From contig JACZJV010000127.1 of the NCBI GenBank assembly GCA_014860355.1, forward strand, positions 1 to 60,768: DNA of 60,768 bases. The letters are read 5' to 3'. Position 1 is the first letter of the stretch. Every line of letters begins with the position of its first letter. Under the pieces are notes generated by a model that saw only the letters and a list, made by a program, of their open reading frames with translations, was not told where the DNA came from and did no database searches. Both the position numbers and the translations under genes were made by a program. Shown in pieces: positions 6,316 to 23,384 of this stretch. The stretch comes from Burkholderiales bacterium. Lineage in GTDB: Bacteria; Pseudomonadota; Gammaproteobacteria; Burkholderiales; SG8-39.

Positions 6316-6384
6316 GGCGGTGTTATGTGCCGCGTCGTGAAGAGCGCAGCATGGTACTTGCAGCCATTGTGCGCTGCGCGCGTC

Positions 6385-6548
6385 AACCGCGTTTTCTGTG
6401 CGGATGAAAAGCGCATCCGCACGGAGAACGCGGTTATGGTTAACACCAAACGCAGCGCGGGGGGTGATACAAGATCGTCGATTGCGCGCGGATGTGCTTT
6501 TCATCCGCACGCAATCGGCGATCCGCGCGGACGGGGCGCCGTCCGCGC
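6385..6548. repeat. Cluster of three REP-like hairpins, two of them inverted copies
   Basis: The 325-bp gap between ugd and rfaE1 holds no gene. It holds three strong palindromes: 6385-6435 (about 22-bp arms around TGCGGATGAAAAGCGCATCC), 6479-6517 (16-bp arms ending GCGGATG/CATCCGC) and 6525-6548 (10-bp arms GCGCGGACGG / CCGTCCGCGC). The tip of the second (GCGGATGTGCTTTTCATCC) is nearly the reverse complement of the tip of the first, so the two are inverted copies of one unit. This layout is that of a REP/BIME-type intergenic element; it could also form transcript-stabilising or terminating hairpins after ugd. Confidence 0.7.
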
Positions 6549-14012: not shown

Positions 14013-15266
14013 ATGATGGAAACTCACTCGTTAATGGATGGAAAACTCCACCTATACAAGCGCGAGCGAAGCCCCTATTGGCAGTGCTCCACATTCCTCG
14101 ACGGGCGCAATCATCGCATGTCCACAAAGCAAGAAAGCCTCACTGTGGCGAAGGAAGTCGCTACAGAGTGGTACATGGCGGTTTACGTGGATGCCCGCCG
14201 GAGAGGCAACGGCGAACGGACTTCTCACTTCCTGAAGAAATTCGGGCAGACGGAGATACCGCAAACGGTGACACCAAAGGCCAGGAAAGTTAGCGGCCCG
14301 ACATTTCGTGAGGCCGCCGAAAAGTTCATGGCAGAATACGAAATCATTACACAGGGACAACGTAACAAGGCTTGGACCGAACACCACAAGCTACGAATTA
14401 GAGTTCATCTAATGCCCTTCTTTGGTGACAGAGCCTTAAGCGAAATCAACGGTGGTCTATTCCAAGAGTACCGGATGCATCGCATCACCCAAGGACATAA
14501 AGGGAGAAAGCCTTCGCGCAGTACGCTTCATCATGAAACAGTAACCATGAGAATGGTTCTAAAAACCGCACAACGCCATGGCTGGATTCCAGCCGTGCCG
14601 GACATATCTGCACCCTATAAAACGTCGGGGAAAGTGACGCACCGTGCTTGGTTCTCCCCCGAAGAATACAAAGTGTTTTATGAAGCTTCCCGCGAACGCG
14701 CAAAAAATCCCCCCCTGGAACGGCACCGTTCCATTTGGGAGGATTTGCACGACTACGTGCTATTCATGGCGAACACCGGGTTACGGCCTGACGAGGCCGG
14801 ACGCCTTGAATACAGGGACGTCAAGATCGTGACGGACCAGGACTTAGGCGAACGCCTGCTTGAAATTGAAGTACGCGGGAAACGCGGCGTTGGCTACTGC
14901 AAGAGTATGCCGGGGGCAATCCTCCCCTTCCAGAGAATGCGAAAGCGTCATGAGGACGCCAAGCCCACTGATAGAATCTTCGGCAAAACGAGGAATGATC
15001 TTATCAATCAGATTTTAAACGACTGTAATCTGAAAGTTGACCGGGATGGAAATACCAGAACAGCATATAGCCTGCGTCATACCTATATCTGTCTGCGATT
15101 GATGGAGGGAGCCGATATTTATCAAATCGCCAAGAACTGCCGCACTAGCGTTGAAATGATCGAACAATTCTATGCGGCCCATCTCAAGAATACGCTTGAT
15201 GCATCCGCCATCAACGTCAGGAAGCCGAAAAAAGGGCCGCGAAAGCCGACAAAAGCGGATGAATAA
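14013..15266 (+). CDS. int: Tyrosine recombinase / phage-type integrase
   Basis: 417 residues. N-terminal part contains a core-binding SAM-like domain (about residues 95-190). The catalytic domain shows the first arginine in ANTGLRPDEAGRLEYRDV, the R-x-x-H box in YSLRHTYICLRLMEGAD, and the tyrosine nucleophile in MIEQFYAAHL near residue 388. It would integrate and excise the element at the tRNA-Ser. It starts 125 bp inside the attL core, the normal place for such a gene. GGGGGTAAG precedes the ATG. The gene appears intact. Lower GC than the host genes. Confidence 0.93.
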   Translation: MMETHSLMDGKLHLYKRERSPYWQCSTFLDGRNHRMSTKQESLTVAKEVATEWYMAVYVDARRRGNGERTSHFLKKFGQTEIPQTVTPKARKVSGPTFREAAEKFMAEYEIITQGQRNKAWTEHHKLRIRVHLMPFFGDRALSEINGGLFQEYRMHRITQGHKGRKPSRSTLHHETVTMRMVLKTAQRHGWIPAVPDISAPYKTSGKVTHRAWFSPEEYKVFYEASRERAKNPPLERHRSIWEDLHDYVLFMANTGLRPDEAGRLEYRDVKIVTDQDLGERLLEIEVRGKRGVGYCKSMPGAILPFQRMRKRHEDAKPTDRIFGKTRNDLINQILNDCNLKVDRDGNTRTAYSLRHTYICLRLMEGADIYQIAKNCRTSVEMIEQFYAAHLKNTLDASAINVRKPKKGPRKPTKADE

Positions 15267-15320
15267 GTTACATTCTTGTATTGGCCAATTTTTCCGACTA
15301 TAAATGTTCCCGATTTGATT

Positions 15321-15410
15321 GGATGGGTGGCCGAGTGGTTTAAGGCAAAGGTCTTGAAAACCTTCGTGGGGGTAACTCCACCGTGGGTTCGAATCCCACC
15401 CCATCCGCCA
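15321..15410 (+). tRNA. tRNA-Ser(UGA), complete, carried by the element
   Basis: Ninety bases with perfect 7-bp acceptor stem (GGATGGG / CCCATCC), D-arm TGGCCGAGTGG, anticodon loop CTTGAAA (TGA), long variable arm TGGGGGTAACTCCA, T-loop TTCGAATC and encoded CCA. It lies 54 bp after the integrase. It reads the same codons as the interrupted host gene and could compensate for it. Its acceptor strand differs from the 13849 half (GGAAGGT). Confidence 0.95.
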
Positions 15411-17496: not shown

Positions 17497-18006
17497 ATGG
17501 CAGACAAACAGAGCACGGCAACCGCAACGGTGATTCCGCTGCGACCGTCAGAAACGCCGAAGTCCTCCGAAAGAAAATGGGGCGCCGCCGTCATGAAGCT
17601 GGGCTTCACGGTTCTTCCGTCCCTGATCTTCCGCGCACAGGCGCGCCTTGGGTTGAGCCCGACGCACTTGGCCGTGCTGCTTCAAATCGCCGATCACTGG
17701 TGGGAGCATGAACGCAAGCCCTATCCGGGCACAAAGGCCCTCGGCGAGAGGCTGAGCTTAAGCCCGCGCCAAGTGCGGCGCCATATCGCCGACCTGGAGA
17801 AAGCAGAACTCATCAAGAGAATCGAACGCAGGGGCGCCCATCGCGGGAAGCTCACGAACCTCTACGATTTAGGCGGCCTTGTCGAAAAGCTCAAGAAACT
17901 CGAACCGGAATTCCGCGAAGTTCAGGAAATGAAGCGGAAAGTCGGCCGCCGGGGCGGACTGAATCTTAAACACAAAGCGCCCGAAGACAAGAAACCCAAA
18001 GGGTAG
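17497..18006 (+). CDS. Winged-helix (HTH_36-like) DNA-binding protein, copy 1
   Basis: 169 residues. Region 50-115 has a replication-initiator or regulator type winged helix: LGLSPTHLAVLLQIADHWW, then LGERLSLSPRQVRRHIADLE as the recognition helix, then the wing. The C-terminus is strongly basic (KRKVGRRGG, KHKAPEDKKPKG). ATG 17497 is favoured because AAGGGAG lies 7 bp upstream; ATG 17491 is too close. It is paralogous to the gene at 18394 (shared WW/WQ block, KRPFP/KPYPG, RTVRRHL/RQVRRHI). Each copy is followed by a tRNA-like RNA. Confidence 0.75.
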   Translation: MADKQSTATATVIPLRPSETPKSSERKWGAAVMKLGFTVLPSLIFRAQARLGLSPTHLAVLLQIADHWWEHERKPYPGTKALGERLSLSPRQVRRHIADLEKAELIKRIERRGAHRGKLTNLYDLGGLVEKLKKLEPEFREVQEMKRKVGRRGGLNLKHKAPEDKKPKG

Positions 18007-18066
18007 ACGCCGCCTGTCCCGGTGTGCGAACCTAATAGAAAGGGCTGAAAAAAACTAATCGAACAA

Positions 18067-18177
18067 AACGGCGTAGCTCAGCAGGATAGAGCATCCTTGC
18101 TTTCTACATACAACCCGGACCTCGACAGTTCGATTGTATGGGCAGGAAGGTCGCAGGTTCAAGTCCTGCCGCCGCTA
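18067..18177 (+). ncRNA. tRNA-Arg(UCU)-like RNA with 34-nt hairpin insert, copy 1
   Basis: The body has tRNA landmarks: CGGCG acceptor strand pairing with CGCCG, TAGCTCAGC...GAGC D-arm, AGGTC variable loop, GCAGGTTCAAGTCCTGC T-arm, no CCA. The anticodon region is enlarged: TCCTTGC-TTTCTA, then a 34-nt insert 18107-18140 beginning CATACAA and ending TTGTATG (7-bp perfect stem), then GGCAGGA. If the insert is removed a 7-nt loop TTTCTAG with anticodon TCT (Arg) and a 6-bp stem with one bulged T remain, and the insert lies at the 37/38 position. It could be a pseudo-tRNA, a regulatory tRNA mimic, or an intron-bearing tRNA. Confidence 0.6.
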
Positions 18178-18393
18178 TTTTCACTCCCCGGCAGCGCGCA
18201 AGCGCGCGCGTGCCGACTCCGTGGCCGGACGTGCAGCCCGCCCAGAAAACTCGAAATAATGGCTTTGCCGCAAACAAAAACGGCCATTATTGGCAAATGA
18301 AGTAGATTAATATTGCTGTGTCTGTTAAATTTGGAGCCAATTAATATACCGTTAGATTTAGAAGCTACTTAATAAGCTGCTAACTACTCAAAT

Positions 18394-18762
18394 ATGAACA
18401 GGCCAGAAATTTCTCAGGAACTGCGGGAGCGGTGGGGAAACACCGCAATCGCGGACGGTTTCCAGCCGGTCCCCCATCGTCTCTTGCGCCACCAGCACGA
18501 TCTCGGATTGTCCGACCCTCAAATGGTGGTGTTGCTCAACGTCCTGGATTTCTGGTGGCAAACCGAGCGCCGGCCGTTTCCGAGCGCGGCGACTATTGGC
18601 CGCAGAATTGGCGCGGCGGAGCGCACTGTCCGGCGACATCTGACCGCGCTGGAGCGAAAGGGCTATGCGACGAAAAGGAAGAGCCGGAAAGGCGACAAGA
18701 CAGAATTCGATTTTACAGGCCTCATACATCGACTGAGTACGATCGTCGAAAAGGCACTATAG
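18394..18762 (+). CDS. Winged-helix (HTH_36-like) DNA-binding protein, copy 2
   Basis: 122 residues, shorter paralogue of the 17497 protein. DLGLSDPQMVVLLNVLDFWW, then ATIGRRIGAAERTVRRHLTALERKG as the helix-turn-helix, then a basic wing (TKRKSRKGDKTEF). No catalytic motif. The stop is 11 bp before the second tRNA-like RNA. The upstream gap (18178-18393) contains an inverted repeat AATAATGG...CCATTATT at about 18256-18292 that may be its operator. A regulator or plasmid-type replication/maintenance protein is possible. Confidence 0.72.
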   Translation: MNRPEISQELRERWGNTAIADGFQPVPHRLLRHQHDLGLSDPQMVVLLNVLDFWWQTERRPFPSAATIGRRIGAAERTVRRHLTALERKGYATKRKSRKGDKTEFDFTGLIHRLSTIVEKAL

Positions 18763-18773
18763 AAGAGATCAAA

Positions 18774-18884
18774 CACGGCGTAGCTCAGCAGGACAGAGCA
18801 TCCTTGCTTTCTTCATGCAACCCGGACCTCGACCATCCGGTTGTATGGGCAGGAAGGTCGCAGGTTCGAGTCCTGCCGCCGTTT
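18774..18884 (+). ncRNA. tRNA-Arg(UCU)-like RNA with 34-nt hairpin insert, copy 2
   Basis: Second copy of the RNA at 18067. Acceptor, D-arm, variable loop and T-arm are the same with point changes. The insert (18814-18847) is again exactly 34 nt: CATGCAA ... TTGTATG, where A-to-G turns one A-U pair into a G-U pair; inside it CCGG pairs with CCGG. Before the insert the loop reads TTTCTT instead of TTTCTA. Retention of length and pairing while the inner bases differ argues for selection on the structure. Confidence 0.6.
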
Positions 18885-23307: not shown

Positions 23308-23384
23308 TGGTGTTGTGACGGGATTCGAACCCGCATATGCACGGCTTGGCAAGCCGCCGCCTTTACCGATTTGGCTACACACCT
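23308..23384 (-). tRNA. tRNA-Gly(GCC)-like gene
   Basis: On the minus strand: D-arm TAGCCAAATCGGTAAAGGC, anticodon arm CGGCTTGCCAAGCCG (anticodon GCC, Gly), short variable loop, T-arm GCGGGTTCGAATCCCGT, terminal CCA. The acceptor stem is imperfect (5 of 7 pairs). It lies between accessory genes inside the element, like tRNAs of large phages. Function in translation is possible but uncertain. Confidence 0.75.

Follow-up and report, generated by a model that had tools for sequence, protein, structure and literature searches.

This locus raises the question of what purpose is served by an RNA that has the fold and the anticodon of an arginine transfer RNA (tRNA-Arg), carries an additional hairpin inside its anticodon loop, and lies behind a gene for a small winged-helix protein. 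Two such cassettes stand one after the other in a 60,768-nucleotide (nt) stretch from a Burkholderiales bacterium (the window, by which the whole stretch is meant; contig 179 in a 202-contig, 5.09-Mb assembly). The first-pass annotation had described two helix-turn-helix (HTH) genes, each followed by a tRNA-like RNA with a 34-nt insert; this observation is confirmed, with coordinates and ends read directly and both RNAs above the Rfam tRNA cut-off of 29 bits, and the interpretation then given to the cassette is partly supported. A comparison of related sequences establishes a real RNA family, with a predicted tRNA fold that includes the tertiary core and with a base-paired hairpin between positions 37 and 38. 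The features of the two cassettes are the following:

17497..18006, + strand: winged-helix gene 1, HTH_36/DnaD_N-like, 169 amino acids (aa); Pfam HTH_36 6.4e-11, DnaD_N 1.2e-7; AlphaFold model of winged-helix type, DnaD best in the PDB (E 1.9e-4)
18067..18177, + strand: tRNA-Arg-like RNA 1, UCU anticodon, without CCA; Rfam tRNA 42.0 bits; family model 108 bits (itself a seed)
18107..18140, + strand: 34-nt hairpin insert of RNA 1, between positions 37 and 38; from the sequence, covariation and the insert table
18394..18762, + strand: winged-helix gene 2, HTH_36/DnaD_N-like, 122 aa, without the C-terminal tail of gene 1; Pfam HTH_36 4.4e-8, DnaD_N 9.2e-8; family profile 1e-44 (itself a seed)
18774..18884, + strand: tRNA-Arg-like RNA 2, UCU anticodon, without CCA; Rfam tRNA 40.2 bits; family model 102 bits (itself a seed)
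18814..18847, + strand: 34-nt hairpin insert of RNA 2, between positions 37 and 38; from the sequence, covariation and the insert table

The two proteins are about 30% identical, and the distance from stop codon to RNA start is 60 nt for gene 1 and 11 nt for gene 2. The insert ends are CATACAA/TTGTATG in RNA 1 and CATGCAA/TTGTATG in RNA 2, and removal of the insert in silico leaves in both a 7-nt loop with the anticodon UCU. The anticodon stem has six base pairs (bp) instead of the usual five, and a U bulges from it in the two window copies; ARAGORN misses both RNAs in their full-length form. The window copies are not the best preserved of the family, for besides lacking a CCA end they contain an A2.C71 mismatch (RNA 1) and a C1.U72 mismatch (RNA 2).

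Members and distribution of the RNA family

With identical copies counted a single time, the family has 25 members in 22 loci, the window included (loci are cited by L numbers where they must be told apart), and nine of these loci are on plasmid records. Beyond the window there are 23 RNAs in 21 loci of alpha-, beta- and gammaproteobacteria. The first RNA search used a 1.56-kb query, and its matches in Methylocaldum and Acidisoma fell in the RNA parts. With blastn, 72,556 plasmid records gave members in Methylocaldum (a natural plasmid of the family is carried by M. szegediense MSZNORminor), Acidisoma, Caulobacter FWC26, Spongiibacter, Methylobacter (two tandem RNAs), Methylosinus, Xanthobacter, Bradyrhizobium elkanii (two identical copies, on two plasmids) and Paraburkholderia terrae; five of the natural plasmids are small, at 12.7 to 29.6 kb, that of Spongiibacter sp. 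IMCC21906 measuring 12.7 kb. A loose pattern scan of genome contigs (at least 120 loci) added at least six loci with seven RNAs, in Limimaricola, Cycloclasticus, Aminobacter and metagenome-assembled genomes (MAGs) of Rhizobiaceae, Burkholderiaceae and Proteobacteria (the last with two tandem RNAs), nearly all the remaining loci among the matches listed being ordinary tRNAs.

A covariance model built from ten of the RNAs (all ten seeds have C35) scores 23 members at 81.5-111 bits, against 66.4 for the best ordinary tRNA among those listed. Two outliers, L373 (74.7 bits) and L044 (57.7 bits; L045 is an identical copy), were kept for their place behind a small gene and for their sequence. The alignment of 23 RNAs (A4), to which all counts out of 23 refer, leaves out L044 (whose loop does not align as Arg), L373 (a later find) and the ordinary tRNA at L127:5835. 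The model has matches in three of the 369 genomes of the window's class (its own included), three of 397 in the order of Aminobacter and three of 385 in the class of Limimaricola (seed included in each). In the window's order its own genome alone, out of 260, has a match (0 of the 259 others), and so does the seed genome alone among the 67 of the Burkholderiaceae seed's family. Searches of this size apply stricter filters, by which weak matches are lost. The family is rare yet widely scattered, a pattern expected of mobile DNA.

Thirteen other genomes of the window's genus contain no relative by a pattern allowing up to three mismatches, an exact 30-base pattern has no match in genome contigs, and the Methylocaldum RNA is unmatched in E. 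coli genomes at E 0.01. A phage origin was considered and rejected: among at least 120 viral pattern loci, a script picked out 14, in none of which an insert of the family type is seen by eye, and two further candidates were an ordinary tRNA (L037) and a 5' half only (L038). A search of viral contigs with winged-helix protein 1 gave no relative, and phage records hold no match over 80% of the length for the two RNAs tried.

Two copies occur in three of the 22 loci (the window, L041 and L156). In L041 (2882-3107, +) and L156 (4476-4738, -) two tandem family RNAs lie behind a single winged-helix gene; their inserts differ, and therefore RNA dose may matter. Other unusual tRNA-like sequences were also noted. 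Those at L049:5347-5430 (-) and L373:587-670 (+), called Ile(GAU) by ARAGORN and having, by eye, a long variable arm as in Leu and Ser tRNAs, are perhaps a second odd kind of mobile-element tRNA, and possible distant or independent cases are found in a Proteobacteria MAG (L120:7569-7655, +; TTTCTA followed by an insertion of about 10 nt) and in a viral contig (L367, -, 1057 from the far end; TTTCTA followed by a shorter insertion).

Structure and covariation

Twenty-four of the 25 RNAs reach the Rfam tRNA (RF00005) cut-off, L044 being the one that fails, and the family is therefore placed as a variant within the tRNA family. The proposed structure pairs 95.9% of 662 cells, against 37-56% when slid, 19 of its 29 pairs are altered on both sides, and its covariation score is 0.447, compared with 0.214 in shuffles (none of 500 as high) and 0.09-0.17 when slid, numbers that lean towards the structure because the alignment was fitted to it and the sequences are related. 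Compensatory changes occur in every helix save the invariant D stem. The Levitt pair 15-48, which stands outside the model, is GC in 17 RNAs, AU in five and AC in one, and U8, G19, T54, T55, C56 and A58 are each present in all 23. CCA is encoded 1-2 nt past the acceptor stem in 18 of the 25.

The insert helix itself covaries (7 of 7 counted pairs altered on both sides, 90.5% of cells paired), bearing out the earlier remark that the insert ends keep pairing while their bases change. Relatives with neither covariation in the insert nor a link to HTH genes had been named beforehand as an outcome that would speak against the cassette; the opposite was found on both counts. The site is constant, with six nucleotides (32-37), then the insert, then an invariant G38, the consensus helix starting directly after position 37 and leaving one nucleotide (G38) on the other side. 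Insert length ranges from 29 to 36 nt, and is 23 nt, by eye, in L373; ACCTCGA or ACCTCGG recurs in some insert loops (the window, L033, L042, L133 and L167), without being universal. ARAGORN names all 23 RNAs tRNA-Arg once the insert is removed (UCU 12, UCG 9, GCG 1, ACG 1), in agreement with the first-pass placing of the insert at 37/38 of a tRNA-Arg. With the insert in place it calls one of the 23, and only a part of that RNA, and when run to allow for introns it recognises all 23 but assigns just nine of them to Arg.

Conservation of arginine identity

The bacterial arginine identity set, as given in a review table (PMC9976931), consists of A/G73, U73, G2-C71, C3-G70, A20, C35 and U/G36. 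In the aligned sequences, identity is kept at 20, 35, 36 and 3-70: C35 and C3-G70 are found in 23 of 23 RNAs, position 36 is U in 12 and G in 11, and A20 is present in 22 aligned rows and also in Acidisoma, displaced there by a gap. Pair 2-71 is GC in 17, GU in three, AU in two and other in one, while the acceptor pairs 4-69, 5-68 and 6-67 and the D-loop positions next to A20 are variable. Taken by itself, an invariant 3-70 counts for little, because pair 7-66, outside the Arg set, is invariant too.

On one FastTree phylogeny, computed from the tRNA body with loop and insert removed, six changes fall on N36 (each from one Arg anticodon to another), two on N34 and four on N33; the tree constrains these counts little, because shuffled labels give similarly low ones (7.9 changes for N36, 63 of 500 shuffles being as low as observed, and N33 and N34 likewise low). 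The idea that the RNAs read codons used by their partner genes found no support: genes beside UCG RNAs have no CGA codons in five of six cases, and those beside UCU RNAs have 0-4 AGA codons.

The winged-helix gene

A gene of the HTH_36 type, as identified with a profile of the winged-helix proteins, lies directly upstream of the RNA in 17 of the 22 loci; the family profile was built from 16 of these genes, the broken one of L049 being left out. An eighteenth locus, L234, retains a 32-aa remnant about 150 nt upstream. The RNA is intact in the three loci where the HTH gene is damaged, namely L234, L049 (broken frame, RNA 105 bits; a sequencing error of the MAG is possible) and L168 (early stop before the match, RNA 95.9 bits). 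The other four loci have different upstream genes, coding for a 102-aa protein (L034), an XRE-type protein (L127), a MerR-type protein (L143) and an 85-aa protein (L373). The gap between gene and RNA is 3-12 nt at 18 of the 22 measurable junctions (both window cassettes and 20 other loci), the rest being 60 nt (window gene 1), 28 nt (L143) and 77 nt (L373), apart from L167, where gene and RNA share 10 nt and U8-A9-G10 of the RNA form the stop codon.

The AlphaFold2 model (10 sequences; mean predicted local distance difference test score 67.1, higher in the core) is a winged helix whose closest structural match is DnaD (E 1.9e-4, the sole match below 0.001), followed by MarR-type regulators, and a PDB sequence search also gives DnaD (E 0.0016). 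The protein matches phage replication-initiation families (PHROGs) as well. A role as replication initiator is weakened by the separate RepA on the Methylocaldum and Xanthobacter plasmids, and because of these two plasmids the protein is likelier to be a DNA-binding regulator than an initiator.

A proposed tRNA-Arg mimic and its alternatives

The explanation put forward here, tentatively and as a quite plausible one, is that the RNA is a non-decoding tRNA-Arg mimic of mobile elements, co-transcribed with the regulator and read by arginyl-tRNA synthetase (ArgRS) or by another reader of tRNA-Arg. The RNA would have descended from tRNA-Arg, retaining the full L-shaped fold, and would no longer decode. 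It would be made as the tail of the regulator mRNA, from which tRNA-processing enzymes would free it; the hairpin would bar it from the ribosome, whereas ArgRS, or the other factor, would still bind it despite the hairpin, so that the RNA could titrate that factor, or report its state, for the mobile element. A ribosome finishing the regulator gene may compete with folding and cleavage of the RNA, thus coupling both products, as is expected because the RNA mostly starts 3-12 nt past the stop codon and once contains it. By eye, a terminator-like hairpin with a T run follows shortly after the RNA at L033:4122-4144 and L040:3113-3143, as would be expected if the RNA ends the regulator transcript.

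Several observations weigh against this explanation. Base 73 is C, which is not in the published Arg set, in 14 of the 23 RNAs, and fits it in nine (A in six, U in three), and pair 1-72 is non-standard in seven. Seven of the 23 were found with a pattern requiring TTTCKAY, and so their anticodons are not independent; the other 16 are nevertheless all Arg (UCU 11, UCG 3, GCG 1, ACG 1). L044, behind an HTH_36-type gene, has no Arg anticodon at the aligned place, and its membership is uncertain, and L373 (Paraburkholderia) fits less well, its loop before the shorter insert lacking one nucleotide. As to the partnership with the protein, 11 of 289 alphaproteobacterial genomes hold a relative of it (E 1e-15), with the RNA only in the seed genome, and no RNA was found in the HTH-relative loci of ten non-seed genomes (L249 and L252, the seed genome itself, being left out) and two rhizobial plasmids (0 of 12). 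In Mantel tests on 16 pairs, protein distances correlate with those of the tRNA body (r 0.32, p 0.007) and of the whole RNA (r 0.26, p 0.027), but not with those of the insert (r 0.01, p 0.44), and a subset of eight gives p 0.10, so that co-inheritance is weak. The first-pass suggestion of a protein-RNA unit thus stands insofar as the two recur together, and fails as regards an obligate pair, both partners occurring without the other (the RNA without an HTH_36-type gene in four of the 22 loci). Because protein relatives mostly lack the RNA and the distance correlation is modest, the RNA is, on present sequences, best described as an occasional addition to a commoner regulator gene.

The alternative that survives best, although unlikely, is that the hairpin is a short intron, excised at 37/38 by an enzyme of the host or of the element to give a working tRNA-Arg, which would amount to protein-dependent splicing in bacteria. 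The insert lies exactly at 37/38 in all 23 aligned RNAs, which ARAGORN reads as Arg without it, and A37 (20 of 23), G38 and C35 (both 23 of 23) are kept while the insert sequence drifts, its best-kept part being the helix base at the junction (mostly CAT/ATG). U33 is nearly universal in decoding tRNAs, whose decoding loop has 7 nt; in this family, position 33 is G in four of the 23. A spliced decoding tRNA, an option raised in the first-pass annotation, becomes less likely because of this G33, the 6-bp anticodon stem, the want of an archaeal splice motif (the insert helix begins at the junction, and the consensus has no bulge-helix-bulge) and the ordinary tRNA-Arg genes (UCU, CCG, ACG and CCU) of the window's own genome, the only host genome examined in this way; together with the non-standard 1-72 pairs, G33, the six stem pairs and the host's own genes also speak against an ordinary tRNA. 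Moreover, the bacterial tRNA introns recorded in PMC4033280 are of group I or II, for which 23-36 nt are too short. The more specific version, a tiny hairpin intron in a mobile-element tRNA-Arg, with the winged-helix protein or the element timing its protein-dependent splicing, is decidedly improbable.

It is quite unlikely that the RNA is instead a decoy, offering an Arg anticodon loop to an anticodon nuclease and thereby sparing the tRNA-Arg of the host. Colicin D is the type of nuclease invoked for such a decoy, and a defence nuclease would be another candidate. That all four anticodons in the 23 RNAs are Arg would fit, as would neighbouring genes of a defence-like kind, present in the window and on some of the plasmids, and the two-copy loci, which would raise the dose. 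No tRNA-Arg nuclease was identified near the cassettes, whose neighbours were not systematically searched for one, and the literature search gave nothing fitting; the kept C3-G70 and A20 are, in addition, unexpected for a nuclease that reads only the loop.

The short gaps and the stop codon within the L167 RNA, together with the presence of the RNA behind other regulator genes (XRE in L127, MerR in L143), would also suit a 3' element of the regulator mRNA, in which the tRNA-like fold and its cuts by RNase P and RNase Z set the end and the stability of the message and the Arg features are inherited and unused. This is clearly improbable, given an Arg anticodon kept although positions 34 and 36 change, a kept A20, and an RNA that is intact in L234 with a mere gene remnant. 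Finally, a reading without RNA function, in which the copies are tRNA genes in decay or serve at the DNA level as an integration or recombination site, would agree with the mismatched acceptor ends and missing CCA of the window copies and with an annotated 'recombinase family protein' gene within 4 kb in six of the nine plasmid loci (none was seen beside L039, L044 and L373 within the flanks examined), but is highly improbable in view of the compensatory changes, the Levitt pair covariation and the spread across alpha-, beta- and gammaproteobacteria.

Genomic context of the window

The part of the window left of about 11.6 kb looks chromosomal, with genes for an S1-domain protein, a tetratricopeptide repeat protein with a LapB-type zinc ribbon, a uridine diphosphate (UDP)-sugar dehydrogenase and a tRNA U5-methyltransferase-like protein. 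To the right lie an integrase-like gene (weak Pfam matches), two ArdC-like proteins, RadC, a type IV secretion system coupling protein, a MobA/VirD2-type relaxase, ResIII and DNA methylase genes, a HerA-like protein, ABC-3C parts and Shedu, and because of this gene content the cassettes appear to sit inside a mobile, defence-rich element. At 14013-15410, about at the border of the two parts, the integrase-like gene ends 54 nt before a complete tRNA-Ser(UGA) gene, probably the attachment site of an element. Within the mobile region there is also a tRNA-Gly(GCC) with mismatched acceptor pairs (23309-23384, -; 48.8 bits), a better one being found elsewhere in the same genome (L011, 68.2 bits). 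A long inverted repeat at 6375-6445, matched on both strands, far under the cut-off, by a microRNA precursor family, is probably a terminator or a repeat.

Comparison with known systems

The family shares with bacterial tRNA-Arg (RF00005) the cloverleaf, the tertiary core, the Arg anticodon and most identity positions, and differs from it in the 23-36 nt hairpin at 37/38, the 6-bp anticodon stem, the loss of U33 in four of 23 RNAs, a base 73 that is mostly C and its location, mostly behind a regulator gene on mobile DNA. Bacterial tRNAs with group I introns have their insertion at the same place, whereas here the insert has no room for a core of about 100 nt, as the first-pass annotation had already noted, and no match to an intron family coincides with any of the RNAs, the group II match in L041 being 1.9 kb away. 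Archaeal and eukaryotic tRNAs with introns also have a short insert at 37/38; the family consensus lacks their bulge-helix-bulge, its hosts are bacterial, and we know of no such tRNA splicing endonuclease in bacteria.

Y RNAs (YrlA) and tmRNA are bacterial tRNA mimics that use a tRNA-like fold for non-decoding purposes. They have no complete Arg anticodon arm, YrlA pairs with Rsr and tmRNA carries a reading frame, whereas the usual partner in this family is a winged-helix gene. The protein resembles the N-terminal domains of DnaD and RepC and HTH_36 in sequence profile and fold (the structure and PDB sequence matches being weak), but it is free-standing (122-169 aa), and, with a separate RepA on two plasmids, is probably not an initiator. 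Type III toxin-antitoxin systems combine RNA antitoxin repeats with a ribonuclease toxin gene; in this family the usual partner is the winged-helix protein.

The literature search found no description of such an RNA, which is weak evidence of absence, most subscription papers lying outside it; locus-tag numbering skips at the RNAs in several plasmid records, which suggests that they may already be entered there as tRNA genes by automatic annotation. None of the described variants tested has this architecture. A review (PMC4033280) describes the tRNA genes of bacteria as uniform, with introns of groups I and II at 37/38 as the sole significant exception. The family departs from that uniformity, with a short covarying hairpin at 37/38 in alpha-, beta- and gammaproteobacteria and in nine plasmid loci. 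If the hairpin were spliced out, protein-type tRNA splicing would exist in bacteria; if the RNA is the mimic proposed here, a mobile-element RNA, paired with a DNA-binding regulator, would target a housekeeping enzyme of translation, ArgRS.

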